In this document: in pieces, positions 17,609 to 64,000 of the stretch
How positions within the stretch are numbered: the first letter of the stretch is position 1
Layout: every line of letters begins with the position of its first letter
DNA from: Apostichopus japonicus
Lineage: Eukaryota; Echinodermata; Holothuroidea; Aspidochirotida; Stichopodidae
Assembly: GCF_037975245.1 (NCBI RefSeq)
Contig: NC_092568.1
Coordinates: forward strand, 2,914,001-2,978,000
Reading direction: 5' to 3'
Length of the DNA stretch: 64,000 nucleotides
Notes under the pieces: generated by a model
Database searches by the model: none
The model's input: the letters and a program-made list of their open reading frames with translations, nothing else
What the model was told of the DNA's origin: nothing
Translations under genes and position numbers: made by a program

Positions 17609-17810
17609 TTGCTATATACTGCAGCTGAATATTCATGTGTGCGGGGAGGACTGGGTCATTGCTATATACTGCAGCTGAATATTCATGTGTGCGGGGAGGA
17701 CTGGGTCATTGCTATATACTGCAGCTGAATATTCATGTGTGCGGGGAGGACTGGGTCATTGCTATATACTGCAGCTGAATATTCATGTGTGCGGGGAGGA
17801 CTGGGTCATG
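17609..17810. repeat. Four-copy perfect 50-bp tandem repeat
   Basis: The unit starts gctatatactgcagctgaat and ends ggaggactgggtcatt. It occurs at 17611, 17661, 17711 and 17761, identical except for the very last base. It reads open in two frames because 50 is not a multiple of three, but the peptides are not protein-like. The identity implies recent amplification or gene conversion. Confidence 0.95.
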
Positions 17811-36100: not shown

Positions 36101-39100
36101 GGTCAACCACCAGGCCACATGAAAAGGATGTCAGGGAGTGCTACAGCCTGGGAACCTGGGTCATTCAGGGGGCCTTACTAAAACAATAACAGGGATAAAG
36201 GGTAATGTACTTGCATTTTCATAATATAAATGAAAGCTTGAAAAGGGGGGGGGGGGGAGACCTGATCACATAATTGCCTCCAGGGCCACTCTAGCTCTTG
36301 ATGCCCCTGTCCTACATACCTGTAATATCGAAGTGCTATTTCTGGTTGGTCTGTATAGAAGTGATGGTTAGCAATGCAAGCCAAAGATTCTATGTGAGTG
36401 CTGTCGTGCTTCAACACTTCCTTATAACATTTCACAGCATTGTCCATGTCATTCAGAGCCTGTATAAGAGAACAAGGGGAGGGGGGAGGGGAGAGGAAGT
36501 GGGGGTCAAGACAGTTTCATAACTCCTGAATAACGTCAACAATGTACTGAATGTGAGCATAAACATTCTGATGTGCTTATTAGCTGCATGGAATACCTTA
36601 AGTTATAGTTGTGTAATGTCAAAGGTTATTTGTGAATAAACATCCACAAAAGCTAGTGCTTAGCCTTAGAATGTGAACAAATACCTCTCTGTACATACAA
36701 AATCCACTCATATGACATGAAACAAAGATATGTTATCGCGAGATCCGGAAATAACTTTCAAAGCAATGATCTCATGTTTCATAAGAGAGAAACATCAACC
36801 TGTAAGAGTGAAAGTAGTAGCACATTTCCTGTTATCTTCAACTGTGATTTACTTTCAGTATGAACACGAGAATTCATGCTATGGATTTTTACTTTACAAA
36901 AGCCGTTATCACATGGCTGGCTTTTATCTATATTAAACAAAACAAAAACACCCTGTAAATGAGACAACACTGAATGCTCAGAACACTAGAAGCTCAATAC
37001 TTATTATTTAAAATTATAAATTATTAAACTGAGAATTATGTAGTATTAATGCACCAAAACAAGATACAAAGTTCAATAAATTTGTTTTCTTTTCTAAATT
37101 GTCATTTTGATTGATAACAACTTCATAAGGAAACAAATCATAAGTTCTTTTTTCTTTCTATTTTATTATGCAAATCTAATTAAACAATAAATTGAAAGGC
37201 AAGTTGGCCTTTCTCCTATATATATAATGGACAGATATTAAATTAAAAAAAAAAATTCTAATGTAATTATTCACTATCAAAGTAAGAAAAAATTACTAAT
37301 TTAACAAGGTGCACATTTCACTACTTCTATTTCTTACCTTATTTTGAAATATTGTACAAACAGGAAATTTTGAAGTATAATTGTTGAATTATGGTTACAA
37401 AATACTAATACTCAAGGATATATATAACAAGATGTCATAGTTGGGACAGTGCTTACCTCATATACTCTTGCTATGCCTGTTTGTAGTGTTGTCTCGTTGG
37501 GGAATTTCTCAAGTCCTTGCTGGAATACTTCCACAGCAGTGAGAGGTTGGTCCAGTCGCACATAAACCTTGCAGAGGTACAGGTATGTGTCGACCGTGGG
37601 CTGTTGGGCCAGAGCTGACTTAAACTGTCTTTCAGAATCTCGATATAAGCCCAACCTGGAATAGAACATTACCAATCATCAACATCGATGGAAAGTTCTA
37701 ATTGTATTTGGGCAGAAGGACACTGGTTTCCTCAACAGTGACTGAGAGAACACAAACCCACAGAGAACTCTAAAAGGGTTAGTGGAATATAAGAGGAAAT
37801 GTAGTCCTAAAGTAAGCAAGAAATTTTTGTTTGGTAAGATAGGGACTTGAACCAGTGATCTCCTGATTAGACTCCTTGTGTTATCCTAGCAAATCTAACC
37901 CACCCTTAGTTGGTGGTGATCTCTACAAAACAGCATCTTTGTAATTCTGAGGTCACTGAGTTAAATCCCTCGCCCTTAGTTGGTGGTGATCCCTACAAAA
38001 CAACATCTTTATAACCCTGAGGTCAGTGAGTTAAATCCCTCTCCCCTTAGTTTGGTGTTGATCCCTACAAAACAACATCTTTGTAATTCTGAGGTCACTG
38101 AGTTAAATCCCAATCCCCTGTAGTTGGTGGTGATCCCTAAAACACAAAATCTTTATAATCCTGAATTCACTGAGATAAATCCTTCCCAACATAGTTAGTG
38201 GTGATCCCTACAAAACAACATCTTTGTAATCCTGAGGTTACTGAGTTAAATCCCTCCCCCTTAGTTTGGTGTTGATCCCTACAAAACAACATCTTTGTAA
38301 TCCTGAGGTTGCTGAGTTAAATCCCTCTCCCCTTAGTTTGGTGTTGATCCCTACAAAACAACATCTTTGTAATCCAGAGGTCACTGAGTTAAATCTCTCC
38401 CTAGCCACTGAAAATGTTATTTGCTTTTTACAAATTGTTTTTAATTTTCGAGTCAATTTACAATTGCTGCTTTACTTCTATAATTTGAAGATAAAATATG
38501 ATAGAAAATGCATTCATAGATTGTAGATAGTTAAGAGAGGAGGTTAATAATATAAATTTTTTACATAATTTGCAAATGGCATACTTAGGTATGATTACTT
38601 TGGTGAAAGTTCACATGGCATAACTTAACTGGTATCACATGGCAAACATGGCATAACTTAACTGGTATCACATGGCAAACATTGCATAGTAAAATGCTAT
38701 GCAAGTCCAAAGATATATAGCAGGTTGTTTTTACAAAGGATCCATGTAATAAGACACAAACTTCAGAGCCTTCAATGCTACTACACAAAATTTGAAAACT
38801 TAATTATTCCCTGCATGAACATTGGAGGAGTCTATCCCATCTCCCATACCCTCTCCCCACCCCACACTTGTAATACCCATACCATGGCAGCTATTGCAAT
38901 ATTTTACCTGTAGTAACATTTTCCAAGCTGGACCTTCCACCACCAGTCTTTAAACTGACAGGCCTGTGTTGCCTGTGAAGCCAGCTCCAGGGCATTACGT
39001 ACATCATTCTCATGATGAAAGATGTATTCAAATAGAGCCTGAAATTATAAGAAGCTAGCCTCGGTCAATGTTTCTCTTGGATCCATTGTTGGAAATCACA

Positions 39101-42100
39101 CAGAAGTTAGGAATAGTTTAAACAAAAAACATATGCTGTGATAGAGTTTAAAAAAAATTAGCTTCAGGTGAAATATACATTTAATCTGTTTATAGCTCTG
39201 TTTATAACTGGAAACAGAATCTGTATCACATTGGTAACTTATTTAATCCAGTTCTTCATTATACTTGCTGTGACAACTTTGTTCCCCATTTCAATTAATG
39301 AAAATCTTGTCCTATGTTACATTTTAAATACAAACTTCTTAAAATACCACCCTACTGATCTAAATCAGGGGTTCTCAATAGGACCCATGGGCCAAATCAA
39401 GCCCATGAAAGATTTCAATCTGGCCTGTGAAAGGCATCAGCCCACAATCTTGCACCAATTGGGTATGCCAGCCATTGGCACCTTCATATATGGCACCCTA
39501 CCATGCTACCCTTGCAAATTGCTCAACCTCTAGTGGGATTTTGGTACTCAATGGCCCTTCACTCCAACTTATGTCTTTTTCTGGCCATCTAAAAAAAATA
39601 ATTGAACAACCCTGCTCTAAATCATCTTTATCATCATTTGCAGTGGGATGCAGCTTCTCATGACTTTGTCACAATGAGGCACTTTCTCTTACCAACTTTT
39701 TTCACAGCTGTGATTGGAAAGGCCAATCTAATGAAATAAACCAGCTGTTTCATATTAATATCTTTGATGCTCCTGGATGTCTAAAATACAAGGATGGAAA
39801 TGGATTCTATACCTTCGCCAAATTGGGCTTGGCTGCATACTTTGCAAAATTTAATCTGGCAAGGTTGATGAAAGGACCATCTGGTGTGGACAACATTGAT
39901 GCCTGTAAAAAAAAAAAAAAACTTTTACAGTCAAATTTTCCTAGTTAGTCTGTTTAAACAATAAGAAAAAGATGCATTTCTAAATATTAAGTGATGATTT
40001 TGGGTACAATTTTACATGCTTAGGTCAACATTCCAAAACATCAGAAAATTTTAAGTGCAAGACTGCCAGTTAAAATGTCTGGAAAGTTCCTTTGAGTCAA
40101 ATCTGGCGATACCCTCTGCACATTTGTTCGCGTTGAAGTTATTAACTTCAACTAATGGTTCTGCATATTTTTCAAATATGATAAATATGACATTAAAGGA
40201 AGAAATACAACCAACTTTGCCCTTTGACATATTTATCTGTCATCTTGTATCATATATAAGGTCAATTTCTGTGCTACTTCTGAAGTGCTGACACAATGGC
40301 CAATACATGCAAAAACAAACTAGTGCAGCCACTTTGATGAGAACAATGGTCTAAGGTTATTGAAATGCTACCTGCAATGACAGTTATTTTCTTTAATGGT
40401 TGCTAAATATCAATAGTAATTTGTCATCTTTGCCATAGTAAAAGCAGCATTTCCAGTTGAACCTGAACATTTTTTTCCATGGAAAATTGTCAGTTTAGTT
40501 CACCACTGTAATTTTGATTTGTTTTAACCTACAATGAAAATGGATATTAGTTTGTATTTGAATCTGTGGGCACTTGTGCTAGAATTTAATCAACACTATT
40601 TCAACAAAAGAAATGTGCCCCACAAATTTTGAGGAATGGAATCATCAGTTACTGAAGTAATAAGCTATTTTGGAATAAAAAAGTTATCAGAGTGTCTCAA
40701 TTTTTTCTGTTTCATACATATTTCAGCTAAATATCAATTAAAGAATACAATTTTGAGCACTGTCACTAAGCATTGTGCAATGTTTTATGCCACAAAAGTG
40801 GCAAAAACAATGTCTATAACAAGATAACAACAGAATTGTTACAATATTTCTACTAAAACATAATTTCCTCTCTGAGATTACTCACTGTTCCCAACCTCAC
40901 AAATCTCCCTGAGGCACTTGTGACTGGTCTAGCAGTGTGAGCTGTCCTTGGAGTTCTTATGGCCTGCTCCATGGTTCCCGGTCTTCCTGATTGAGTTCCC
41001 GGCCTGACAAATCCACTCAACGGTCGACCGGATTGAGACATCGGTCTCACACCAGCGGATGGTGCTCCCTGGCCAGTCCCTGGAGCTTTCAACGAAGTTC
41101 CAGGACCTGTTGCACACAAAAATGTAACAATATCTATTGTAAAACAATAGCAGTAATGAACTGGCTAAAAATGGTATACCACTTTTAACAGAGAAATTTT
41201 TATTTGGCTAGAATGGTGTGGTACTAATTACCATACTGGATGTTAGGTTAAGGAAAACAAATTCCATTTTCTACCAACTGCATGAGCTATTCAGTCTGAA
41301 TTTGGGGCTGATCCAACTCCAGCCAAATAGGTCTGTGTATGTTCTTTCATACTAAGCAAACAGGAATAACTTTGTTGGCATACATTTATGTAATAGGTGT
41401 GAAGCATTTGACAAATACAACTTCAAAGCAGCAATGAATGTAGTGCTTAAGAATGTTAGCTCTAACGCATGAAAGCTATACAGATGTCAGTCATGTTAAC
41501 TAGGAAGACTGTCCTGCAACTATATATGTGAAATAGTCTTCCAAATTAGATGAATGAATCATTACAACTTAAATCAAGAATAGAAATGTTGATATTTTCT
41601 ATGGGGCCAGGAAATCAGGAATGAGTAAAATACACGAAGGCATTAACATTCAGTTAGCATGTTCAAAATCTTAAATTGTTGGTTTGAGATGAAGAAGGAT
41701 AACTCCTGAACCTGTTCCTAGGTCTCAAGTTTATTCTAAAAATAAAGGAAAAGGATCAAAGATGGGATCAAGTTCTTACGTGAAACACTGGCAATAACAT
41801 TATCATCCATTATCATCTCTGCAATTCCTTCTTCATCAACTTCCACCTCATCAACATAAACTTGTTCTGTGAGTGCCCTCATCTTCAAATGCCACGTTGC
41901 CTGAATGCAAGTACATGAATGCATCATAATTTGTTTTATAGCTTCAAAGTCTTCTTAAATCTCGACAACACACCACACATTCTTTTATGTAAATGGACAA
42001 TGCAGAGTGCTCAAGAAGTACCTTGGCTATGTGAGTGGTAAGGCTAAGGAGAGGAGAGGGGGGGGGGGGGCAAAAAATGACAATTTCATTATGTTACCAA

Positions 42101-42557
42101 ACTAATGAAAATCATGTTCATGACTTTAAAAATTATTACTATGATGAAGCAGACAGTTTATCCAGTTTGTGTGGCTGGGAATTGTTCCCAGTATGAATAG
42201 GATTATATTTATAGTCTTGCACAATTTATGGTAATGTTGTTATTTCAAAAAGTTCATTGGATTTGGAACCTAGACTTTTTGAGAAATTACCAGTTGTAAT
42301 TGCACTTCTATGTGATGAAGAGGGATGTTTCACTGCATTTGTATTTAAAGGAAGTTAATAAAAGTCCTGGGGAATTTGAGGAAAGTGGATCAGTGTTGCT
42401 TAGTTTTAGGCCTAACTTTAAAATTCCATGCCAGCCACACATTGCACTTCCCTACCTGGTCATATGGATTTTTCTGCAGACTTTCTGTGCAGACATCGAC
42501 ACATTCTTCAAATTTTCTCCTCCGAAAGAGATTTAGTGCAACATACAATGGATCCAT
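33134..42557 (-). CDS. TTC8: Bardet-Biedl syndrome 8 protein / tetratricopeptide repeat protein 8 (BBSome subunit)
   Basis: BBS8 is a TPR subunit of the BBSome, which ARL6/BBS3 recruits to move membrane cargo in cilia. Coding exons, in transcript order: 42557-42456, 41900-41780, 41106-40886, 39902-39813, 39038-38908, 37655-37457, 36459-36320, 35411-35237, 34549-34427, 34047-33964, 33250-33134. All introns are GT-AG, the frame is continuous and the product is 500 residues (human isoforms are about 500-540). The N-terminus is MDPLYVALNLFRRRKFEEC. Residues 75-148 carry the family-specific GRP-rich segment (SGRPGTMEQAIRTPRTA, SGRFVRLG). From about residue 150 it is helical TPR sequence, including DWWWKVQLGKCYYRLGLYR, FNNLGLCCFYAQQYDMTL and NNNHAESYNNLGVLELRKGH, and it ends LKKHFSVL. 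Exon 1 joins directly to ATWHLKMRALTE, so the short retina-specific exon of mammals is absent. It is divergent from NPHP1. Confidence 0.96.
34782..35026. repeat. Three-copy tandem repeat in a BBS8 intron
   Basis: Units of 77-87 bp start gctgcatctt(g/t)tag (34782, 34870, 34947) and continue with gaggacaggg(g), atggcaggggt, caggga and gcatatcaatcatcatg variants. It lies between the exons at 34427-34549 and 35237-35411. Confidence 0.8.
37835..37903 (-). repeat. Possible tRNA-derived SINE remnant in a BBS8 intron
   Basis: The minus strand reads ggttcaagtcc, close to the tRNA B-box, preceded by gctaggataacacaaggagt. Flanking ggttaga and tcttacc can pair at six of seven positions like an acceptor stem, but the T stem does not pair. 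It is at best a degenerate tRNA-like sequence. Confidence 0.25.
37904..38404. repeat. Seven-copy tandem repeat (66-73 bp unit) in a BBS8 intron
   Basis: Each unit holds ttagttggtggtgatccc (or ttggtgttgatccc), tacaaaacaacatctttgta, and ctgaggtcactgagttaaat, ending in a C-rich stretch. Copies begin near 37912, 37979, 38045, 38118, 38190, 38262 and 38333. It lies between the exons at 37457-37655 and 38908-39038. Confidence 0.9.
39366..39614. mobile_element. hAT-type MITE (249 bp) in a BBS8 intron
   Basis: It starts CAGGGGTTCTCAAT and the complement of its end reads CAGGGTTGTTCAAT, typical hAT-like termini. Flanking octamers atctaaat (39358-39365) and ctctaaat (39615-39622) match at 7 of 8 positions. 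The interior (gggccaaatc, tggcctgtgaaagg) resembles the terminal parts of hAT elements in many animals. It has no transposase. Confidence 0.75.
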
Positions 42558-46300: not shown

Positions 46301-49300
46301 ACAACCTTCGTGGTACACAGGTTTGTGGCCTAAGACGATTTTTTAAATATTTTTATTGTGTTCTCTGAAAGGAGGAACATCACATTATTCAAATGATATA
46401 TGTGGGCTTGTATTAAGGGTTAACTCATTAAGGACTAAAATAAGACATTTTGATGATCAAAAACACACTCCACGTCATAGTTTGCACATATTTAATGAGT
46501 TTCCCAGATTTATCAAAATTTCAACTGTGTTTATCTTGGAAACAAAAGAGCTGACGGAAAATTTCAACAGATTTAGCATGAGATTATCACACACAACAAA
46601 TGTATACTGAACATGGGACAAACATGGTGTCCATAGTAAAACAACAACAAGACAAGACAAACAAACAGAGATTGTGATTCGCGCCTTTGGAGGGAAAAAA
46701 TCATACTGACGACTTAGTGCCTTAATGTGAACCTACTCATAGCATGTAGATTTGTATCCATGTCATTATACAGCTTAATACCCAAAGTAGAGTTAGTGGC
46801 TAAATGTGAATGTATCATATCGTATTCATACATTGCATATCATGTTTTTTTAATGAGTAATGGTTGTGCTAATTGGCAAAACCAAATAGAAAAGTGGGTT
46901 AACTTTTGCATATAGCTAAACTAAGTGAAGTGTGATCTGCAAGCCATCTAGTTAACAATCAGTTTTTTTTTCTCTAATTTCACATGCAAGCTAACATTTC
47001 CCCATGGGACAAACATGGTGTCCATAGTAAAACATGGTGTCCATAGTAAAACAACAACAAGACAAGACAAACAAACAGAGATTGTGATTCGCGCCTTTGG
47101 AGGGAAAAAATCATACTGACGACTTAGTGCCTTAATGTGAACCTACTCATAGCATGTAGATTTGTATCCATGTCATTATACAGCTTAATACCCAAAGTAG
47201 AGTTAGTGGCTAAATGTGAATGTATCATATCGTATTCATACATTGCATATCATGTTTTTTTAATGAGTAATGGTTGTGCTAATTAGCAAAACCAAATAGA
47301 AAAGTGGGTTAACTTTTGCATATAGCTAAACTAAGTGAAGTGTGATCTGCAAGCCATCTAGTTAACAATCAGTTTTTTTTCTCTAATTTCACATGCAAGC
47401 TAACATTTCCCCATGATGAGTTACATCTCTTAAACTAAAAACTGGCAAAATCTTGATAAGTGGTAGTCTCAAGAACACACTCTGCCTGACTCTCCCCAAT
47501 TTCCACAGTATGTGTGTCGGGTTGTGTTCGGGTGAGTCTTGTGTGACCGGTTTAAAGTGTTCTTTTTGCTCGTTTTTGACTTGGTTGTATTTTGTGTTGA
47601 TGCAATCAAAGTGAGATGCAACAGGGTGAGAAGAACAACAATGACATGGAAGACCGGGATGAAGATGAGACATTGGACAGCGATGAAGAGAGAGAGGCAG
47701 AAGACACCACTGCAGAATCAAAGGAGCAAATCTCGGAGAATAAATCTAAATTTAAAAGGTTAGGGCTGTTCAGAAGGTCTAAAAGCCCAATTAAGGACAT
47801 CAAATCAAAAGTTCCCAGTAAGATACCCGAGGAGGAAATTGGTGATGAAGATGTCGTAGAATCCTTGGAACAGTCTGAGGGAGATGAAAGTGAGGTGGAG
47901 GAGGAGGAGGAGGAGGAGGATGTGGTGGAAGAGAAAGAGAAAGAACTGAGTAAGAAGGAGAAAAAAGAGAAAGAAAAACAGGAGAAATTACAAGCCAAGG
48001 AAATGAAGGAGAAAGAGAAGAAAGAAAAGAAAGTTCAGGAGAAACTTGAAAAAGAGAAAAAGGCCAAAGAAAAGAAAGAGCAGAGGGAAAAACTGAAGGA
48101 TGAATCAGAGAGAAAGAAGAAACAAGAAAAGGAGAAAAGTAAAGGGAAAGAAAGTAAGGCAGATGTAAAGGAGAAGGATGAGGAGGAGGAGAAGGAGGAG
48201 GAGGCAGATGAGGATAATGGAGAGGATAATGAAGAGGATGAAGACAGCTTGGAAGATGAGGATGAGGACAAGATAGAGTCAGAGGAGGAAGAAGAAGATG
48301 ACGATCTTGAAGGACCCGATGACGATGAAGATGATGTTGAAATTATTTCCGAGACAAAACAAGACAAAAAGGGCATTGATGTAAAGAAAGAGAAAGAGGT
48401 CACAACAGATTCTAAACGAGGGAGCCGTGGATTTCGTTTCTTCCGAAGCAAAACACCAGACAGGTGAACTAGTTGTGAGAGTGATTAATAGTACTAACAG
48501 TAAACTTGGTTTGTGGTGCACACACTTTACCGTCGCATTAATGAATACTTGTTAACAGTTAGCTGTGTTAATTTCATACTAACCCATAGCACTTGCTTAT
48601 CGCTGGTGTCATACCGACATCAGTGGATTTCACACTTTCACTGAACCTGACAAGTTGTTCTGCTGGATATTCGTTACAGAATTCCAGAAACGATATTTTC
48701 TTGTGTATATGTTAGATGTCAACATTTGTAATGTTAATTTTGTGAGTAACTTACTTAAATTAATCATTTCTCTTTCATGAACATTTTGTATCACTTTTCA
48801 TTTCTCAAGACACGTTGAATCTTCGTTTTCAGACTGTTCAAAGTAAAAACCTTCTATGAAATCTTGTTGTTCTTACTCATACCTATCACATTCATACAAT
48901 TTCTTGTGTTTGATCATTCTTTCCAATCCAGTTCACTCTTTCATATTGACATTCTTTTATCAGTTTTGTGCTGTAAAACCATATCATGTCTTATGTGGGA
49001 AAGTTTCCTTACACTTAAAGACTTGTTCCTTGATTAAAATGTATCCTTAAATGTTTTAAGAGTACTCAGTAGCATGGCATTAATCTCTTGTGTAGGAATG
49101 TTCTCAGTAACCTGTGGATAGCCTGTAAAATAGCGTCTAAAAAGCTGTTTTCGATGCTACACTCCCGGTCCGTATCATGCAAGTTACCATAGGTTACCAT
49201 CGATAGATTGAAAATAAAAGTTATTTGTTGTTCACTGTAACAGCCCAAAGGTGTAACATAAATGTCAAACGGAAAGGAATGACAAAATTGCTCACAGTAA

Positions 49301-52300
49301 ACAATGCCTGATGTGAAAAACAACTGTGTTCATTTTGGCTAAATTGAAGGGTCAAAAAATAGATTGCTTCGGTAATTGATGTAGCTAGTGTGTTTTGTGA
49401 AATTTCTTTAATTCTTAGAGGTTTGAGAGATATTTGCTTACCCATTATTTCATGATGTTGACAACTTTGCCACAAATTTAACATGACATTGATATTTGTT
49501 TCAGGAAACAAAAACCTGAGGAAGTAGGCAAAGATTCGAGTACCAAACAGAGTGGGAAGGCTAAGCCCGGTAAAGGTAAGAGACAGGATTTGTTCACTTT
49601 TAAAGCGATAGAAACTGTTCTAAGAGTATATTTGAATCCAACAGTTTCAAGTGATTGCAGTTTTTGTCAAGTTTCAGCCGAATTTTCATTACAGCTCTAA
49701 TCGATCTGAACAATTGGTTTCTTTGTTACAATCTTTGTGTTAGATTGAGTATGATTATTAGATTAGGGATAAGATTTATTGAATTTCGGCTGTAATCAAA
49801 TTACAGCCATGATATTTTACATTTGTGGGTTTAATATCATAAAATACAGTTTGAAAACTGAGTTGATTACTTTTGATAACTAACAGAAGGCAAGGGAACT
49901 AGAGTAGAAGAAGTAGATGGAGATGATGAAGATGATGAGGAAGAAGAGGATGATGATGATGATGAGGAGGAGGAGGATGATGAGGATGAGGAGGAGGAAG
50001 AAAGTGATGAAGATGTAGTCATAGCTCAGCCTAAGTCATCTGGAGTATCGAGTAAACCTGGACCTTCCAGTTTTTCATCGAAACCGAAATCAACTGGTGA
50101 CTCTTCTAAAAAAGTTGGAATAGTGAGGCAAGATGCCAAGGAAGATGAAAGCAGCGATGAGGATGATGATGAAGATGAAGAATATGAAAGTGGAGAAGAA
50201 GAGTAATGAATATTCATTTATATGCAAACCTATGCAGCCAGTTGGGACAATTTTCTAGTGCTAATACCTCTCTAAACTATCCTCCCATATCATGTTTCAA
50301 AGCACTTGTATCGACAGTACAAACAATTCCTAATCTTTATCTGATATTAACACCATATTCATACTGCTCATACTGACACTACGAGTGCTCTGAACCAGGA
50401 TTGACATTACAGTATAGAATAATTGTCCCAACTGGTTGTCATATGAATTTAAATCTATGAATATCCATTTATGTGATTTAAATATGAAACGTTCAGGTTT
50501 AGTGTTTGACATTTTGCTCACATGATTAAATTGTTAACTGATATGTTTTTGTTTTGCAAAATATTCAATACAAAATAATGAAATTTTACAATTGGAATTG
50601 TCACATCAGTGGTCTTTGATCTTGAAAATGGCAAATGATATTTGGAATAACAAACAACACTGACAATTTTTTGTTGTTGCAAATGTGCCATTGAAATTAT
50701 GTCAGAGTCAAATATAACTGTGAATTATTACGGAAGCTATCCATAAGTGGGATGAAAACTGAGCAAAACTCTTCAGTCAGTATTACTTCTTTACAGTTGC
50801 CAGTCAGTCTTCATTACAATGAAAGGAATATCACTGGCATCTCTAGCAAACACAATTCTTTGTTCCATGCTAGCTGCCCATTTTTACTTGGTATTTTGAG
50901 TTAGCAGCAGTTTACAGTGTATATAGTGGTGTTGTATTCAGAGTGTAGTTCTATTCTTCTGGGTACAATGGTAGGTTGAACAGGTTAGGCAGTAACCATG
51001 TTTGTCTGTATCATGTTAGCTCGCATGAAGTTTATTTCTTGCTAGTTCCTATAAAACTCCAGGTAATAATAATGGATTTATTTACAGAGTACAATATCAA
51101 CATAAACGTTATCACAGGCACAATAATACAAACAATTGGTAACAGAAAAGCAAATAATATATGAAATCAGCCTAGAATGAATAACGACCGTAAAAAAAGA
51201 CAATATCCACGAAAAAAGAAAGCCTGGAGTAATATTTATTTATAATTGATATTTTAGTGAAGAGGAAGGAGAATTAGAGGAAGAAGAGGAGGAGGAGGAA
51301 GAGGAGGAGGAAGGAGATGAACTTGAAGAGACGGGATCATCAGAAGAGGAAGATGAGGATGATGAAGATGACCAATTACCTCTTGAGGGAGTAAGATAAT
51401 CATGTTTTGTTTATTTCTTTCCCCCAATTTTTTTTTAAAGCATTATACGCTTTTGTTTTGCTTAAGGTCTTGGAAGAAGAACAGTGCTAATTTTTGTCAA
51501 ACCACATTAAAATGTTTTCCTTGCAAATGGGAATGGTCTTGCCAATGTGTTGCTAGGCTACCCTTATAAATAGAATAATTTTGTGGTAAATTATGCAAAG
51601 CAATAGTTCCAAAGGCCTGTGTTAGCTTTTCTGGGAAACAGTTTACTTTGCCAAAATTATTGTGTCATGTTGGGTCATTTATCAATACAAGATCTATTTC
51701 CACTTAGTTTTGACAACAGTGCACTTTGTTGAGGTATTTCGAAAATTAATGAACTTAATGACCATTTACTACTTGAGTTGAGTGAGTTTTGTTTTCTAAA
51801 AATAGGACAGGTTTATATTAGCAGGCAGCAAAATGCTACAAGTTCTTCATGAATGATTATTTGTTCGGATCTGTTAATTGAAATAAAATTTTGTATGATT
51901 TATTTCCTCATACTGAATGAAGTCGATTGTTTTGTGTCATTTTTGACACGAAAAATTTATAATTGCTGTTCTTGTAATCCCATTCGAATTACAAAATTGT
52001 ATGTTATATTTCTGGACTTTCCTGGATTAAGTATTTATAAGCATGTTCTCTTTGCATATCTTTTCCTTTTTAGGAGAATATGTTTGTTGTTCTGTGTGAT
52101 TTTGATGGCGAAGAACCGACAGACTTAACGGTAAAACAAGGCAATGTTGTCACCATCCTCAGCACAAGGTATAGTAGTTAATTGTAGCATCAACTAGAAC
52201 AAAAATACAAATTGTGTCACCTCCCAGAATTTATTTGGAGAGATGTTAGTGAACACATGAGGGCATTGTCTGTAAGGTTATTGTTAGTTTAATATCAATC

Positions 52301-55300
52301 TTAACATATCAGTTACATCAAGCATTTAAACATGGAATAATTTCATACAACCATGGTGAGAAATTTTGATCTTCTAGAAACTGTTCTCTTCCAATGTACT
52401 CAGATTCAAAATCGACTTATCTTGTTCTACAAGTTTTATAATAAATGTAATTAATTGATAGCCAAACAATGTCATTTGATTTGACTAATGGGAGGAGATA
52501 TGGATGTTTAAGAAAAACCTGTTGCTAAGTGTCACTTTGTCTGCTAAAGGGTATTTCCCTTCATTGTCATATCCATCCCAGGGTTGGGCTAGAGGTGGGG
52601 AGCATGGAATCAGTGTTACTCACATTATTGTATTATGGTCTACCACCACCCCACCTCCCTCACTCCTTGTACTCACAATAGACACTGGAAATGTCAATGA
52701 TCCAGTTTTGAAGGACCATATGGTGATGTATCTTTTAATCAATACATTTTGCCATTATAACTGGAATGTTTGCAAATTTGGTGGTATGTGAAGTAGGAGA
52801 AACAAATGGACCTCCGTGATATGAATTATTTGTTTAGTGTAATAGAATGTAAACAAGAGTTACTGTAATATTCAAGAATTTATGTATGGATTTGCCTCAA
52901 CTTTGAGAAAATTTTCACAAATCTCCTTCATGTCATATCTGAAATATTCAAGTAAATTATTCATTATTTATACAGAGAGGATGGTTGGTGGATGGCAGAG
53001 GATGAAGAAGGGAATAAAGGCATGGTACCAAGCACTTATCTCAAGGTAACAAACAGGACCTATTGATAAAGGGCAGGGGAAGTGGTATGTGTGTGTGTGT
53101 GGGGGGGGGGGGGAGGGGAGTGGGTGTGATACCTCTTGTAACAATCAGGAATGCGACCAGGACATGCAGAGTACTGGTGGCTGTTTTGCAATGTCCTGGC
53201 AAATTTGGATCACTTTGTTAAATTCATCTTTACTAATGGACCTTGAAGTACTGGTTGTGGCAAACAGTCATTGCTGGTCAGAAAGGCATTCATTTTAGCT
53301 TGGTGTTTGTCGGTAAGACTGACTGTCAGTCGGTACTGACCACCACAGACCAGCATTCATAACATCACCGTTGACAATGGACAAACTTGTTTATACAGTT
53401 ATAAGTTTAAAGGCATTGAAGACTCGCCCCAAACCGCGTGCCACCCTCTGAAAAAGTTAACTTTCCTTTGCTTGCAAGTGAAGTTTTTTCTTGTCGCTAC
53501 AAAATGCAGACAGTTATGAAACGTGATACCGTGTTATCTTTTATCTAGACCTGATATGTCCATCGCTGCTATGCACACTGTGTTGTGGGTATTGACCGTA
53601 GCTGTTTGTTTTGTCTGTACACTAGTGTCAAATTACCGACGGTAGCAAGCTGTGTGTGTATTTTCTGGTATTGATGGTGGTGTCTAACACTTCTGTTACA
53701 CCTCATTCAAAACTAGGTCAGATTACCGGCATGAGACGTTTCTTTGTGCGCGAGTCTTCACACCCTTTAAGGACAGGATTAGTTAATGTAATTTAATTTA
53801 ATTTGCCTATGACCTGAACCTCTACTGGGAACCTGATAGTGAACTTTGTATCGTGAATAATCAAATACTGCATTTTAACTTAATTTCTTTGCACCCATTA
53901 AAATATTTTATAATTGATTACTGGCGCAGGAAGTGTGTTCAACAACAATGTCAAGGATGAAAGAAAGACCTGAGTATTAGATTTTCAATGTTAACTGCCA
54001 TTTTATAATTTCAGTATTAACTGTCTTAATTTATGCAGCAAAATTCACTTTAGCTGTGAAAAATAAAGTGGAACAGATTCAAAAGTTATTTTAGATTGTT
54101 CCTCTGTGTTTAGTTCATCATGTGTAGCAGTATGTGCATCTTGATTCAGTTGTGCTTTCTTAGATTCTAGTAAATATTAATCTTCATCTTTCTGTTTCTT
54201 TCCTCTCTCTCTCTCATATTTTAGCTGAAGAGAGACTCTGTTGACTATAAGGACATTCAATCACCAGAACCAGAGGCAGGTAGGTCATTCTTTGTGTATT
54301 TATGCAGTTTTTAGTTAGATTTCAGTTGTAGATAAGAGATGTTGACAATTCACAAATCAAAAACAGATAATATTCCATAATTATTGAAACAACAAAAAAC
54401 TTTGTATTTCCCTGTCCCTGATTTAAGCTACATTGCAGGCAGTAATGTATATATGGATACAAAACTTAACTTAAATACTTGGCAAAGAGCAAAATTTCAA
54501 CAGTTCCACATGAGTTTATTAAATCTTTCAGCATTTGTTCAACCTCATGACAAATTTGTGTTGGACAAGTTCAAAAAGTTGGGAAAACCTCTTTCCATGG
54601 ATTCTTCCTTCTTTAAACAATAGCATTTGTTTACTTGCATCATGACAAAGTGTTTCCTTTGTAAGCTGTTTATCTACCCGACTATCCGTTTCCAGTTTGA
54701 ACAAATTATCATTTTAATACGTTTGGGAAGGGAGGAGAGGTGAGATGTTACATTAGGGAGGGGAGGAGAGGTGAGATGTTACAGTCTCATTGTTATCCAT
54801 CTCCTGACACCTATGATCCTTGTGTGAAATTTTACATGTTATGTATTCAAGTGTAATGACATATACTCATTTTGATGTTGTTTTTTGTTTTTGTTTTTTT
54901 GCAAGATGCAGATGAGAATTTTTCTCCTAGAAGGTATATCCATCATGTATACAAATTCATCAACCTACTTTCCCCCCATTTCTGACTTTTATATGTTTAT
55001 TTATTCCATGTTCTTAGAGTTAGACTGTAACTTTCTTCCACAAATAATTTGATAATAAATGGTTTTCATGATAGAAAAGCCAAACGCTATAAAATACTAA
55101 TAATAGAAAAATTTAACTCAGATTTTTTTTAACAAAAATAACAAATTACTAAATTTGACTGCTTCCCTTTTTTTTCCCTTTTTTTTGAAAGCAGCAGTTT
55201 GGGTTAAATCTAAATATATTTTTGCATTGCGATTCCTTTTACCTATAAATAACTTAACTGTCAACTTACCTTACAAATAATCCGGAAAATTTAAACTGGC

Positions 55301-58300
55301 ATATATATACTGAAATATATTTTAAAAATGAACAATTGGAATCATCACTCCATTGTTGACTAGTGATCTTTGACTACAATCAAACGTTAATAGGTTTGTT
55401 TGACCTCAAAAAGTCAAAATAATGAAGAAAAAAAAGAAACAAACAAAGTAGCATGTGTAATTAAATTGACAAACAAGTTAAAACAGATAAAGAAAAAAAC
55501 TTCAAAGAAATTGCAACTTATGAATCATGGGATGAAAAGATTTTCTCCCTCTTTCTCAAAGGACCATAACTTAATTACATGCATTTGAGATCCTCTCTCT
55601 TTGGGATGATCTGGCTGAGATTCATATGAAGAAAATTTAATAAATTCAAACCACTGGCTCAAAAACACATATTGACTGGTTCCTCCTCACAAAATCCTCG
55701 CTGCTCTAAATCATCCATTTGTATTTATAGAGATAAACAGAATGTTGGCTTTTGTTTATTCTTTTGTCTTTAATTATCGTGTGCCCCTGTCAACATTAAT
55801 ATCACTGTAGTATCATTAGTTTCTCTTTCATATTTTCTCTCTTCTTGTCTGTCTTCTCTTCATTTCGATGAAAGATACGGTGGATGATATGGAAGACAGG
55901 TAAATTGGACATAGTTCAGAGGTTTGCTGATCTGTTGTTAAAAGGTTCTTGAAAGCAGTGGCATGCAAAATTAGTGAGCCTAAAGATGTGTGAGAAATGC
56001 AAAAATGTAGGTGTTAGTGGTGGCTGTCCATTTTAGTTGAATAGCAATGCAGTTAGATAGTAAAGAAAATGGCTAGTTTGTAGATACAAGAATGTGTAAT
56101 GATTCTGTAGCATTTTAAATGCCAATGAAATTTTTGTTTGAGATGCAGCAAAATTGAGTTGACAGAGAAGGTAAAGAGGAGAGATGAGTAAGTTACTAGA
56201 ATGTAGAGAGGTAGAGCAAAGGGAGGTAGAGCAGAGAGAGGTAGAGCAAGTATGGGAGGGTGGGAAGATATGTAATATTAAGAGAAATCCTAGGGAGGGG
56301 GGGAGAGGAGGGTGGGAATAGAATGGAGGATGGGCATTGTGTAATATTGGGAGCCGGGAAGATTATGGTGCAGTAAGGTCGGGTGGTATAGTGGAGATAG
56401 TATAATAGGCTACAAATGGCAGAAGTTAGGGTAAGGAGTGGGTAGTAAAACATGAAGGAGTAGAAGGTGGTACCATGGGGTGGGGGAGGAAGCATAGGAG
56501 GAAAAGTAATGTGAGGAGAGTCAAGACGGAAAGATTAAATAGAGGAAAGCAAAATTGAGCAGAGTTGGGTGTTGGAAAGGGTGTAGGTTAATATGGAGGA
56601 TATTAGCAATGGATTTTGAGTTGTTGGTAGTTTGTAATATTTGGTGCTGCCAGATATTGGCATCTTGTCATAAAATTATATGTCTATCGTTAGATGTTGC
56701 ATAATATTAGTGTTGATATGGGCAGATATCGTAATCCTAAAATTCTCCAATATCTGGAATGTTGCCTCTGTATTCTTTAATTAACAACAGTCTGTTATAT
56801 CTTCTCTTGTATCCTTTGTTTCCTTGTTTCTTTTGTCTGCTTTTAACATCTCATTTTGGTTTCAAACCTTTTTTTTCTTGTTAATCCATTCATTTTGTCT
56901 ATTTTTGTTATAAAGCATACTATTCATGCCATTTTTATTTGGTTTGATTTGCAAATTTGCATATAATTTGTCTACTAATAAAGCCTGCATATTACATAAA
57001 ATTTTTGCATATAATTTGCCTTGAGTTTTTTGACTTCACAAATAATGCGTGTTGCATAAATATGCGCATACGTAATACATTTTGTTTAAGCGAAACACAA
57101 AAACAGCTCTTTATCTGCCAGTATCTCTACCATGCAACCTAAATTGTTAGTGGGTTGTTTGTACCTATGGGATTTGAGACTTTGGTAAGATGATACTATG
57201 GCAGGCCGAATGTCTGACTTCAGCGAACTGCTGCATGCAGTAGTAGCTTAGCTCATGGGGCTGTGGGGTGGTTGTTATTGGAACAAGAATGCCATCCACC
57301 ACTTACATTTGAGGCTCTACTTTGCCTCTCCTAGTTTTACTCCAGAATAAGGGCTAGGTACCCTTCCCCCGCTAACCTCCCATCCAAAGGCAAAAGTGCT
57401 AAGTAATGCATAAATTTTAATGCTCGCTTATGTAGAGTACTTTAAAAATGACTGAATGAGGAGAACATTAATTGTTGGAAACATTTTGATTTCATTTGTC
57501 ACTTTCTTTCAAGTATATGCCTTCACTTTAGACTTGCTATAGGAAATTTTGTTTCACATATGCAGGGGTGTACTCAAGAATGTTTGAGTGCAGGTCGGAT
57601 TTGTGCAGTAGTGTGATCCACATCCTGGGGAGGGGTCTAAGGGGTGGGGTGTCCTCCCAAAAAATTTGCAAATGAAGTATGCTTGGATGGCAAATGGTTC
57701 CTATTCCAGAGTTAACTTGTGTGCCAAGTATTCACCAATATTTTGGTAATGGTAAAGTTTGCTAAATTAATCATCAAAAGTAGTGCCGTGCGGAAATGCT
57801 CAAAGTACTGTTTGTGCTGGGCAGCATTCAGAACTGCCGGGAGCAGCCTCCCAGAGCTGCCCGGCTTGAGCACGTCCCAGCATATGTTGTGAAAATGTTG
57901 TTTTGCCCTCACTGTACAAGGGGTGGAAGTAGGGGGGGGGGAGTGGGAGGAGATGGACAAGAAGAGAATGTACCCACCACTGATCCCAGTATGTTTATTA
58001 AGTCTAACAGTACTCATTTTAGTTATATTTTCTTATTCTTTCTTTTCATTTTCTCATTCTTTTGTATTTATTTCCGTAGTGGCAAAGAGCTCTGGAAATC
58101 AGTCAGGAAATCCGTACATGAAGTAAGATGATTATTATTTCATTTTGAAATTAACTCAAGCTTGATCCTGCTATGGAATACATATACGTAAAGTAATCTT
58201 TGGCAATGTAGAAATCAGTATTGTGTTGTTCCCTATGAATTGAAGTGAATGTCATTGTGAATGTCATTGTGAACATTTTAGCGATGATAATAATAATCGG

Positions 58301-61300
58301 TCATTGATGACATCTTGGTCAACCAACGGTTAAGGAAAAATTAAATATCGGTGTAGCATGAGTGTCAGCACAGACCAGTTGCGGGTCTCAAAATTCTCTC
58401 TCTGTACCTTCATTGATAGACAGCCCTACTGTACGCAACTGATGTCAGTTACAGTGTATGATGGTAATAAAGACCCAGTTTTTGGTCTTGTTTGGTTTTT
58501 CTGTTTTTGGAACAAACCATCTACCATTATGAAAGGGTAGAAAATATCCGTGAATACATCAGAATGACTTTTACACATCATGAGTAGACTATTTCATACC
58601 CCCCTCCCCCTCCCTGGAAGAATGTAAATTATGTACATAATTTACAACTAATTATGATGAAGTCTTTGATCTTGTACAATTAACCTTTGTACTCTCTGTT
58701 TTGCCATCAGACCAGTGCTACAGATGTTTTGAGTGCCATGGGTGCTATTCCAGCTGGCTTTAGACCGTCCATGACAGCGCGTCTTCTAAAAAATGGTTGG
58801 TGTTTTCTGTCATTGAACTTGTGTTTATTTAATACTTTGCAAAATTTTGCTACACATTATCAGAAATGTTTGGAACTTCTAATATCTTTTAAATCAGAGA
58901 ATAATTAAAATATAACTTGATTTGCCTGATATAAGTTGCCCTGAAGGTAGATGATACTATATATAATAAAAATTGTCAGACCCTTCGGCTTTTTATACTC
59001 TCTCCTGCATCGGGAAGGTTCAGGTAGATGAGCAACTTCCAAAGTGTACAGTGATTTCATACGTCATTCATTGTGATTCCTGGGATGACTTTAACAATGT
59101 CTGTAGACCAAAGAGAATCTTTTAGCTTTTGCTGTGAATATTCCTCTTTTTTATTTCATTGTATTTTTACTTTTAGAACAAAATAAATTGAGCAGTTTCT
59201 TGAAACCAAAGTTGAGTCCGTCCAATCTGAGCTTCAGCGATCTGCTCTGGGATCCGCAGACTAGTCAGGTTAGTTGGAGAGACAAAGTATCATTGGAGAA
59301 AATATTCAATATTGTAATTAACAAAATGATGAAATAAATTGCATGGGTCTGGAAATATAATGTTGGATTTGTGTTACTATACAAAACATCATGAACATTG
59401 CAAGTTAAAGCATGGCATTGGAGAAGCTCAGAGGCTGATTTGATAGTCTATACTTTGCAAAATTTATTGAATAGTTCACTTAGAGATTGCCCTTTGAGGT
59501 CAAGACCAAAAGATAAAAGAGAAAATTATATTCCTCATGAGAAAGCTGGTTAATTTTGTTTATGACCGATATTCTTTTATCTGTGATTTCTTGAAGGTGA
59601 ACAGACATAAATTTGTGGTCATATGGATTCAAATCTTTATTGCTGTATTAGTTTGCTTATCCCTGGAATAATTTCATATGTAAACAATCTCTTCCTTCTT
59701 AATTTACCAGTTACGTGCGGTGCCTTGCAGACTCCAAAAGATGCTCTCCCTGGTCTTGGTGAGAAACATGCCAGCCATGGGTGTAGGTAGGGTAGCAATT
59801 TCCTTTATATTTATTCCCCTAATTGATTCTAGGTAGTATTAAGGCACCTCAAATATGTCCCCCAATGACAAACAATATGAAACAATTGATTTCTAGATCA
59901 AAATGGCATACAAACACTTACTCATCCCCCCCACCCACCCCCCCCCCCCCCACCCCACCTGTTACCTTCTCCTCTCTCCTCTCATGATGAGTGGCATTGC
60001 ATTGGAAGCTCATATAGGCAATAAACTTTACTTGAATTAAACTAAATCAAATTTAATATAGAAAAATATCTTCTCATCTATCTTTGGTTGTTTAATAATT
60101 CTCTCATTGTATGATATTCACAAACATCCATTTTCATAGCAGAATGAAAGGACCACACATCATAATGTAAAATCTTGGATTGTTGGAAGACATCTAAGAA
60201 CAACGAACAAACGAAGGAAGGAATAAGCATGTGTGATTTTTAGACCGAATAAGAATGTATGGTATTGAAGAGAGTCAATATTCGTACTACTATTATATGT
60301 AACACATTGCAAGATATTTGAATTGCTCTCAGACCAAGGACGTATGCAGGTTAGACATTGCAAGATGTGAGTTTCTGATAGAATTACTGCAGTATTCAAA
60401 CTTACTATTCTCTCTTAACCTTTCAGGATTGGAAACCAAGAGCAGACATGCTCGAATTGCAATCTTTGATGGAAAAGAGGTAAGTGATATGCTAAATGAT
60501 ATGTTAGTGAAGATGCATGAATATGAAAATTAAAATAAAAAGAAAGAGAAAAGCTAAATATAGTTTTTTGTTTCTTTTCAAAGCACTATAGTTCTTAAAT
60601 GTACCAGGTGATAGCCTAAGATAGCAAACGTTAACCAAGCTGTTAGCTAAAACTTCAAATTTTAGAAAATCTAACTACAATGTGAGGGAAGAAAAAATTT
60701 GTTCTTGAAGGTCATACTAGATTATGAAACATATTATAGAACCAAATAGAATAAATAAAACAAAGCTGCAGTAAATCCATGAATATATGAACTATGAAAG
60801 ATGCAAGTGTGACACATTTATGATCTTCAGAGTACCAGAACAAAAATAACACATGCCTCTTGAAGGGTAGGGCCAATACATGTGCTACAAAGTTGCCTGA
60901 TGAAGATAAAGTGGTTGGGCTTTTCCGAATGGTTGGTGCTGGAAGAATCCACGTAGGGGGTTTCTTTGAAACATTGGCAGCTCTTAGTTTTCCGTCGGCA
61001 TTTCAACAAGTTTTGTCTGAATTGCTAAAATTTGTGTTAAAGAGGGTTTTAATATTCAAGTTACTTTTCTTTTACCTGTCCTAGGTCCTTAGTAACATCC
61101 ACACAGTTCAAGCGACATGGAATGAAACCGACCTCAAGACCTGGAGGTTCTCACCAAGGGTAAGTACCATGCGGATAGGAAGTACTTGTTGTGTTATGAA
61201 CACCTTATGAATGATAAATTAATGCAGTGTATTGGTTTAATCTCCTATTAAACCATTAGTTTCAGTCCGAGGGGAGTGTCTCTTTCAAAATGTATGTTTT

Positions 61301-63209
61301 TGTGAACGTAATCAATATAACACTGGCTGTGAAAAGTGTAAGCAAATTTAAGATTACTCATACGAATTTACTCTGACCAAAAATTTTCTTTCATAAGTTA
61401 ATAAAATACATTTTTATAACTAAAATATTTATGTGGTTACTAGGTAATGGCATATTATATGTTTGAATTGGTCACATGTCTATTTTTAAAATGTATTTTA
61501 AAGTTGACCAGCATCTATTGTGGTATAAGCACTTTGATGTAATAAACAATATTTTAGTAACTACAGCTATTTATTTAAGTCAAAAGGGTGTGATTTACAT
61601 TGTTGACTAGTGGTTTAAAAATCCATGCAAAGAATTTATATCACATGAATGATTGATATGTCATCCAGCACAATATATGGTAATATTGATATTAAGGTGA
61701 CCTTAAAATACATTAAACTAATCTATCATATTATAATATATGCCGTCTGGTCACCAATTTCCAGGTATCTGGTATACTTCCCAGCATTCTTGATGGTGAA
61801 TGCTTCATAAGATCTGATAAATCTGACAAAAACGTTGGTGAGTTTTACATTCTATTTATCTTTGATCTGTTTCATTTAATTATAGTCATGTGTGTTTGAT
61901 GTGGGAGGGTGGGGGGGGTGCAGGGGAAGATAAGGGGTGGTGGGATTGAGATGTGGCTGAAGTCACAAAATTTCAAAGCCCAGGTGGCTCATTAAATTTG
62001 AATATAGAGTAACTCAAACTGTTTTCTTTTCTTTTGGAACGACCAAATTTAGAAAAATACTCTTTGTTTCATTCCTGTTCCTTTCTTCTTTTTAGAAGCT
62101 ACATTTTCTGTTCCATGGTTACTTCTTAATCAGTTTTCAAAGACCACGTAGAACTTAAACATAACTGTACAGCCTTCAGTCTGACATTGATGTAGTTACA
62201 AGGGTTGTATTAAAAAGCTGCATTTATGTGGTGATGTAACTTCTGGATGTAATGCTGACCAGATCATGTAGATTTTAACATAGTTGACCTAGCCTTCATA
62301 TGTAAGGTCTATTTAGTTGCACCTGTTTGACATACCAATTAGAGAGATGCAAATTTTTCTTCCGTTCAATTTTTGCAACGTTAATCCTCAGAAGTTTAAA
62401 TTATTATTTTTGTTATGATAATTTTCATTTGTAACCCTTTCAAGTTAAGCCTTTTTTCATCTTTCCGAGTGTGATGAAAGTGACAACATAGTTCTCATGC
62501 ACTGAAATCTTCCTTTAACAGTTGATTATGATCACAAAAGACTGGCAGCAAATTGAGCATAAATTTCTACTTCAAGTCATAGTGTGTTCAGAGATTATTC
62601 ATTTCTCTCTTAAAGAGGAAGCAGCTATAATATATTTTCCTTCATTTCTTCATATATCTCAGGTAGCTTTATAAGAGCATAAATCTATGAAAAAGATTTA
62701 CCTCAAATATATTAAAATATCTTGCTCTTCGTTTCCAGGGTTACTGATAGAACTTTGTGTGTACTACGTCAGGACAGTAAGTAATCTTTCCACCGTAGTG
62801 GTTACACTCAACTGACATGTTTGTCTACTGAAGTGTGTAACAAAAAATTGTTTTTTTACAACAATTTGTAACAATTTTAATATATAAATTTTGTCACCTT
62901 CTGAGAGTTAAAATTTTCTTGGGTCACAGTTTAATTGCTTTGAATCAATGTTTGTTGAGGTTAGGATATGCTTTCCTACACTTTGTTTATCTTTGTTACA
63001 TTTAGTTTTATAGGATGTGGGATTTTTTTATGCGGTGTGGGGAGGTCCTGTATGGGGGAGTGGTATTTAACTGCTCAGATTGTTATTAATCCTTCATGTT
63101 TTTTATTTTTTTATTTTTCACAGAAAACTGGTGAAAAGGGAGAATTAAGTTGTGGATGGGTTCATCTTCCTCTCTTTAGTGAAGAGACAGGGGGACCTAT
63201 CATCAATAA
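43306..63209 (+). CDS. NPHP1: Nephrocystin-1 (transition-zone protein), C-terminal exons beyond the window
   Basis: Nephrocystin-1 works with NPHP4 and RPGRIP1L at the ciliary transition zone and at cell junctions. Exons: 43306-43368, 44289-44377, 44545-44605, 44988-45062, 45507-45568, 47612-48463, 49505-49575, 49887-50202, 51258-51390, 52074-52168, 52976-53045, 54225-54279, then either 54906-54933 or 55875-55899, 58080-58122, 58711-58795, 59177-59268, 59711-59786, 60427-60479, 61085-61159, 61765-61837, 62739-62776, 63124-63209. The frame is continuous for about 863 residues. Residues 1-117 are an N-terminal coiled coil (QLERCRELQKAVTKLEKK). Residues 117-574 are highly charged. The SH3 domain at 575-629 has FVVLCDFDGEEPTDL, DGWWMAED and GMVPSTYLK. 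Then comes the nephrocystin homology region: SAMGAIPAGFRPS, SDLLWDP, VLSNIHTVQATW, ILDGECFIRSD, GEKGELSCGWVHLPLF. The human protein has 732 residues; this one is longer because of the charged part. The first exon's donor (aag|gttcaa) is weak, but the alignment supports it. Confidence 0.93.
46612..47415. repeat. Near-identical tandem duplication of about 0.4 kb in an NPHP1 intron
   Basis: Copy 1 (46612-47002) and copy 2 (47003-47415) both run from catgggacaaacatggtgtc to gctaacatttcc. They differ by an extra 19-base repeat (atggtgtccatagtaaaac) in copy 2, one base (aattggc/aattagc) and one T in a poly-T run. Weaker, older relatives of a piece of the unit (actcatagcatgtagatttg) occur at about 45928 and 46012. 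Confidence 0.95.
47612..48463 (+). other. NPHP1: NPHP1 giant charged exon (852 nt)
   Basis: The exon encodes about 284 residues, over half of them Glu, Lys or Asp. It runs acidic, then Lys/Glu single-helix or coiled coil (KEKEKKEKKVQEKLEKEK), then acidic again. Near each end is a basic aromatic motif: FKRLGLFRRSKSPIKD and RGFRFFRSKTPDR, both with RSK[ST]P. The acceptor tcaaag|TGAG is the only nearby AG that restores the frame. An ATG at 47616 means a downstream promoter could also start here. Vertebrate NPHP1 has only a short acidic stretch at this place. Confidence 0.8.
54906..54933 (+). other. NPHP1: NPHP1 alternative microexon A (28 nt)
   Basis: It is preceded by a long T-rich tract and gcaag, and followed by gtatat. 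In frame from the exon at 54225-54279 it gives DADENFSPR and leaves two bases (AG). It enters in phase 1 and leaves in phase 2, the phase that the exon at 58080 requires. Confidence 0.7.
55875..55899 (+). other. NPHP1: NPHP1 alternative microexon B (25 nt)
   Basis: It is preceded by a pyrimidine-rich tract and gaaag, and followed by gtaaat. In frame from the exon at 54225-54279 it gives DTVDDMED plus AG. Entry and exit phases are identical to microexon A. Including both, or neither, would shift the frame of the nephrocystin homology region. Confidence 0.65.
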
Positions 63210-63920
63210 GTAAGTTTCCTCTCCGGGTGGACCTATCATCAATAAGTAAGTTACCTGTCCGGGGGGACATATCATTAATAAGTAAGTTTCCTCTCCGGGT
63301 GACCTATCATCAATAAGTAAGTTTCCTCTCCGGGGGACCTATCATCAATAAGTAAGTTTCCTCTCCGGGTGACCTATCATCAATAAGTAAGTTTTCTCTC
63401 CGGGTGACCTATCATCAATAAGTAAGTTTCCTCTCCGGGGGGACCTTTCATCAATAAGTAAGTTTTCTCTCCGGGGGGACCTATCATCAATAAGTAAGTT
63501 TCTTTTCCAGGTGACCTATCATCAATAAGTAAGTTTCCTCTGGGAGACCTACCATCAATAAGTAACTTATCTCTCCGGGGGACCTATCATCAATAAGTAA
63601 GTTTCCTCTCCGGGGGACCTATCATCAATAAGTAAGTTTCCTCTGGGGAACCTTTCATCAATAAGTAAGTTTCCTCTCCGGGGGGACCTATTATCAATAA
63701 GTAAGTTTCCTCTGTGAGACCTACTGTACCATCAATAAGTAAGTTTCCTCTCCGGGGGACCTATCATCAATAAGTAAGTTTTCTCTCTGGGGGACCTATA
63801 ATTAATGAGTAAGTTTCCTCTCCGGGGACCTATCATCAATAAGTAAGTTTCCTTTCCGGGTGATCTATCATCAATAAGTAAGCTTCCTCTCCGGGGGGAC
63901 CTATCATCAATAAGTAGTGT
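63193..63920. repeat. Minisatellite made of an NPHP1 exon end plus its 5' splice site, about 21 units
   Basis: The 32-38 bp unit consists of the last 17 exonic bases (ggacctatcatcaataa) followed by the first intronic bases (gtaagtttcctctccgg). The first unit is the true exon-intron junction at 63209/63210. About twenty more follow in tandem to 63920, most with an intact aataa|gtaagt. The last units are degenerate (aatgagtaag, aataagtagtg). The minus-strand Leu-Ile-Asp-Asp-Arg frame is an artefact of the array. Confidence 0.97.
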
Positions 63921-64000
63921 CCTCTTCGTCAAGTCTTTAGACTTTTTACATCAAATGTTATGTATTACCTTCAAGCTGTAGTTATAACTTGCTGAGTATA

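Follow-up and report, generated by a model that had tools for sequence, protein, structure and literature searches.

Tandem repeats whose unit carries a 5′ splice site are already known from three human genes, IFI6 (6-16), CBS, and ABCA7. The intron 18 VNTR of ABCA7 is reportedly the subject of a 2018 study by De Roeck et al. According to PMC5954066, this 25-bp repeat opens with the exon 18 donor, which supplies its first two bases, and its copy number ranges from about 12 to 427. The isoform retaining one unit amounted to 2 ± 1%, unchanged by array length, and skipping of exon 19 rose strongly as the array lengthened (p = 3.24e-13).

The human CBS gene contains a 31-bp VNTR, c.1444_1467+7(16_21), present in 16-21 copies, each of which by this notation joins 24 bases of exon to 7 of intron (PMC2630376). 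In CBS ins68, where an exon junction is duplicated, the more distal copy is strongly favoured (PMC2630376), and a 2001 paper cited there ties the 31-bp VNTR to reduced enzyme activity in its title. For IFI6 (6-16, G1P3), the minisatellite “provides multiple splice donor sites” in the words of a title (Turri, Cuin and Porter 1995), and PMC4526556 describes two downstream repeat units that serve as donors, giving three mRNAs.

The locus described here, in the NPHP1 gene of the sea cucumber Apostichopus japonicus, is a tandem repeat built from a unit that includes the neighbouring exon's own 5′ splice site, the defining trait of donor-carrying minisatellites. It belongs to the kind already known from human genes. 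An earlier note on this DNA had held that no donor amplified in this manner was known, and in view of the three human cases this was mistaken. The array brings such minisatellites, so far from three human genes, into another animal; a literature search for an NPHP1 minisatellite listed no paper on one.

ABCA7, CBS and IFI6 are the closest known counterparts of the NPHP1 array. Each 25-bp unit of ABCA7 repeats the donor, and retention of a unit causes a frame shift and a premature stop (PMC5954066). The ABCA7 repeat begins at the GT without the exon end, whereas the NPHP1 unit includes the exon end. Polymorphism, decoy use and exon skipping have all been measured for ABCA7. In CBS (PMC2630376), the unit carries the donor, units vary by substitutions, and both size and copy number are close to those of the NPHP1 array. 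The gene and animal differ, however, all CBS units are 31 bp rather than 33-38 bp, and length alleles are known for CBS.

The whole stretch of DNA analysed, hereafter the window, comprises 64,000 nucleotides (contig C8:2914001-2978000), and the array is located 2.98 Mb into this 43.0-Mb contig. Tandem Repeats Finder places a minisatellite at 63190..63925 of the window (+ strand), with a period of 35, 20.9 copies, 86% matches, and a score of 1079; in the window only a 410-bp repeat at 46620 scores higher. Measured from junction to junction, this minisatellite of 35-bp units comprises 21 units of 33-38 bp with 21 donor junctions. Its first 20 bases are the last ones of an 86-nt NPHP1 exon, and the other 716 take up the start of the following intron, which is 1,132 bp long. 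We confirm that this array of donor junctions at NPHP1 is real.

The consensus unit is GGGGGACCTATCATCAATAA/GTAAGTTTCCTCTCC (a slash marks the junction), with at most 20 exonic bases and 15 intronic bases, and a run of G blurs its exonic edge. The earlier note had read the unit as an NPHP1 exon/intron junction, and aligning the sequence and junctions of all 21 units bears this out. Its proposed split into 17 exonic and 17 intronic bases does not stand, nor does a start at 63124, which is the start of the exon; the repeat proper begins at 63190. A 21-base junction word allowed up to three mismatches occurs 19 times in the window, always within 63199-63887, compared with a mean of 0.01 in shuffled sequences (n = 100).

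The unit appears to be private to this locus. An exact 19-mer from it has 12 matches across the assembly (671.6 Mb, 35 contigs), every one of them inside the array, and a DNA search of the assembly with the whole array returned the array itself as its single match, although searches of this type can miss repeats. An origin from a dispersed repeat or transposon was rejected because the unit matches the end of the exon next to it and these searches turned up the array nowhere else.

The 86-nt exon, KTGEKGELSCGWVHLPLFSEETGGPIINK(-), occupies 63124..63209 (+ strand) and was recognized from its sequence and junctions, which include the acceptor TTTTTCACAG/AAAACTGG and a phase 2 donor. Upstream of it, an open frame and consensus junctions define a 38-nt NPHP1 exon (GLLIELCVYYVRT) at 62739..62776 (+), whose donor ACA/GTAAGT leads in phase 0 into the 86-nt exon. 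The true donor is the first junction of the array, TAA/GTAAGT at 63210..63215 (+, unit 1), and the exon that it ends is a genuine coding one. This is the sole junction that carries the frame into the next exon, which starts beyond the window at C8:2978342 (L009:1342), after TTTGCTTTATAG. The two exons join in phase 2 with the frame open (AAT AA/G TTG TAC GAG). Their joint 54-aa peptide matches the assembly at these two places only, and thus there is no second copy of the locus at that sensitivity.

The identity of the host gene, which extends from 47601 to 64000 of the window (+) and past its right end, was established with the aid of its SH3 domain. Two exons that jointly encode this domain lie within 52080..53048 (+), at approximately 52080-52169 and 52977-53048, as judged from their frames, and were joined by eye. 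The joined sequence matches SH3_1 (E = 1.8e-13), and among 267 matches to solved structures the best is Nephrocystin 1 (1s1n, E = 5.2e-13). By sequence comparison, the domain is most like that of nephrocystin-1, which supports the earlier naming of the gene as NPHP1. The exons beside the array, which presumably resemble the C-terminal part of human NPHP1, matched no Pfam family and no solved structure, and gave one match below threshold (MVL, E 0.16). Five of ten peptide landmarks, some of them guessed from remembered human sequence, were found along the gene, and the NPHP1 exons that were read around the array keep open frames.

Following the true donor are 20 decoy junctions (63246..63919, +), located at 63246, 63282, 63317, 63352, 63387, 63422, 63458, 63494, 63529, 63562, 63597, 63632, 63665, 63701, 63739, 63774, 63809, 63843, 63878, and 63914. 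The expectation of some 20 near-perfect decoys behind the true donor thus holds: the hexamer GTAAGT is intact in 18 of the 21 units, that is, in the true donor and 17 decoys. The exceptions are unit 11 (63562, GTAACT), unit 20 (63878, GTAAGC), and unit 21 (63914, GTAGTG). The full 9-mer of the true donor, TAA/GTAAGT, is identical in 16 of the 20 decoys, and unit 18 reads TGA/GTAAGT.

Use of any decoy, like retention of the intron, would lead the frame into the stop AAG TAA at 63208..63213 (+), so that the protein would end after the last lysine codon of the exon; frame reading gives this outcome for 20 of 20 decoys. It had been proposed that decoy use would soon bring a stop, and in fact an in-frame TAA is met at once. 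With the first decoy this stop lies 32 nt ahead of the new junction; with each of the remaining 19 the distance falls between 68 and 700 nt. Because every decoy meets the stop, the decoys are unable to act as backup donors for the full-length protein. This differs from IFI6, whose 12-bp unit lets added units preserve the frame.

Computed pairing energy with U1, based on the commonly known sequence of the U1 end, is -5.6 for the true donor and equal for the 17 decoys with GTAAGT. In the predicted RNA structure, 15 of the 20 decoys are more accessible than the first donor. An RNA structure that hides the decoys was also considered and was rejected, since the predicted accessibility of the first donor is no greater than theirs. 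With equal U1 pairing and no advantage in accessibility, sequence and structure alone leave a preference for the first donor unexplained. Such a preference would have to come from its position at the exon end and from exon definition. The locus offers a clean natural test of donor choice by the spliceosome, in which about 18 donors are equally strong and a stop marks each wrong choice.

The mutations that have accumulated in the array were counted over units 2-20, leaving out units 1 and 21. Departures from the consensus occupy 49 of 665 cells, which means that the array is not fresh. Only three of the 49 mutated cells fall in the donor 9-mer, compared with 12.6 expected. Permutation within A/T and G/C column classes gave p = 0.024 for the 9-mer and 0.025 for the hexamer, p = 0.013 for the least-mutated window anywhere in the unit, and p = 0.002 for a 15-column core that was chosen after inspection; the permutation treats mutations shared by descent as independent. 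Most mutations (40 of 49) lie in G/C columns of the unit. Given the weak p-values, the separate counting of mutations shared by descent, and the load on G/C columns, we regard the low mutation of the donor 9-mer as a hint of constraint and no more. The pattern does speak against the decoys having been removed by selection. A search for higher-order structure in the array showed no fall in likeness between units with distance, and units differ on average by 4.6-5.8 at lags 1-12.

Donor words are not favoured in arrays across the genome. Triple GTAAGT with a spacing of 20-48 bases gave 5,108 + 3,715 = 8,823 matches on the two strands versus 5,472 + 5,438 = 10,910 for the reversed pattern, and AGGTAAGT triples gave 259 + 58 = 317 versus 313 + 135 = 448 reversed, all of these being overlapping matches rather than numbers of arrays. 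Across the whole assembly, no excess of arrays carrying GTAAGT over those carrying the reversed word was seen. With arrays of this type so numerous, and the donor word no commoner in them, a minisatellite that begins at a genuine donor can arise without any special cause. The earlier note suggested that the array could capture U1 snRNP, buffer loss of the real donor, or tune NPHP1 output through its length. The two computed results, accessibility and genome-wide counts, do not favour a dedicated device, and the less-mutated donor 9-mer leans weakly toward one.

Starting from what is seen directly (an array made of copies of the junction, an unbroken frame over the first donor, and a stop for each decoy), we favour, with a probability of roughly 70%, a minisatellite born at this locus in which the first donor is mainly used, a minor leak enters stop-containing transcripts, and the effect is little or modest. 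The end of the exon and its 5′ splice site would first have been copied by tandem duplication at this place, one breakpoint falling in the G run of the exon and the other some 15 bases inside the intron, and unequal exchange or slippage may then have expanded this duplication to the 21-unit minisatellite. By analogy with ABCA7, the spliceosome would mostly pick the first donor, which borders the exon, and excise the array as part of the intron. On the same analogy, a minor fraction of transcripts would use a decoy, meet the immediate stop, and yield truncated NPHP1 or undergo nonsense-mediated decay. Individuals probably differ in array length, and the consequences are likely to be small or modest.

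This explanation is supported by the make-up of the unit from exon end and intron start, by the in-frame joining of the first donor to the next exon, by genome-wide counts that do not favour the donor word, and by open frames in the NPHP1 exons that were read, even though the array is not fresh. In ABCA7, which has the same anatomy, the low one-unit retention, unaffected by array length, points the same way (PMC5954066). Standing against it are the equal U1 pairing of 17 decoys, the greater predicted accessibility of 15 of the 20 decoys, the preference of CBS ins68 for its more distal copy (PMC2630376), and the less-mutated donor 9-mer, which would not be expected if the array were purely neutral. 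Because longer ABCA7 arrays strongly raise skipping of the next exon, the expectation of little effect may fail for long NPHP1 alleles. The array might instead mainly harm or shift nearby splicing, by skipping of the next exon or by decoys winning, so that long alleles lower NPHP1. Decoys of equal strength do sit closer to the acceptor, and both the growth of exon 19 skipping with ABCA7 array length (p = 3.24e-13; PMC5954066) and the 2001 title linking the CBS repeat with reduced enzyme activity (cited in PMC2630376) are in keeping with such harm, yet the open NPHP1 exons around the array reveal no decay of the gene, and we consider this unlikely.

Decidedly unlikely is an unproductive-splicing rheostat, in which the decoys, by competing for spliceosomes, would route NPHP1 transcripts in regulated proportion to the stop and to decay, with array length tuning output. 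All 20 decoys do give a stop, which 19 of them place far enough before the new junction to pass the 50-55 nt rule for decay known from mammals. The identical 9-mer kept in 16 decoys and its shortage of mutations (p = 0.024; least-mutated window, p = 0.013) likewise fit this proposal, but the caveats given above apply, namely weak p-values, one stretch chosen with the data in view, mutations shared by descent taken as independent, and 40 of the 49 mutations in G/C columns. Donor arrays also show no genome-wide excess, and one-unit retention in ABCA7 is constant across array lengths (PMC5954066). That selection maintains such a rheostat, with 17 intact decoys binding U1 and diverting a length-dependent, perhaps tissue-dependent share to the stop, and with the donor 9-mer kept as the rest of the unit drifts, strikes us as very unlikely. 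Redundant donors that selection keeps as a safeguard in case the true one is lost would account for the well-preserved donor words, but they are contradicted by the frame, unless truncated NPHP1 is useful, and their probability is close to negligible. It is highly improbable that the array is an assembly artefact: tandem arrays are often assembled at the wrong size, and the copy number may be wrong even if the array is real, but its units differ from one another in sequence and in length (33-38 bp) and it sits within a 43-Mb contig. The known picture of splicing is unchanged unless RNA reveals regulated decoy use; a large or regulated decoy share of transcripts, if true, would make the NPHP1 array of real interest.

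Several other features were observed nearby. TTC8/BBS8 at 36178-42557 (-), with solved-structure matches 6xt9 and 6vbu and a start codon placed by eye near 42557, stands head to head with NPHP1 (47601-64000, +), making a pair of cilium genes. A loose X-box pattern was not enriched within the window (seven found, 3.8 expected). The top-scoring tandem repeat, at 46620-47415, has a 410-bp unit present 1.9 times at 99% identity and lies close upstream of the acidic NPHP1 exon. Another tandem array adjoins the gene just 3′ of the NPHP1 end (L009:5926-6628), where a repeated sequence translates as DVTTISEIH in several frames. A very young array at 17607-17809 consists of a 50-bp unit present 4.1 times at 100% identity. 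An element of about 1.4 kb at 30353-31763 has TTCGCCCAACC-type units arrayed in inverted orientation at its two borders, its outer arms (30353-30398 and 31718-31763) being 46 nt long and 100% complementary, and looks like a non-autonomous foldback-type transposon. Cytochrome P450 exons are present at 2508-4194 (+), where 2508-3542 matches PF00067 (E = 7e-39).
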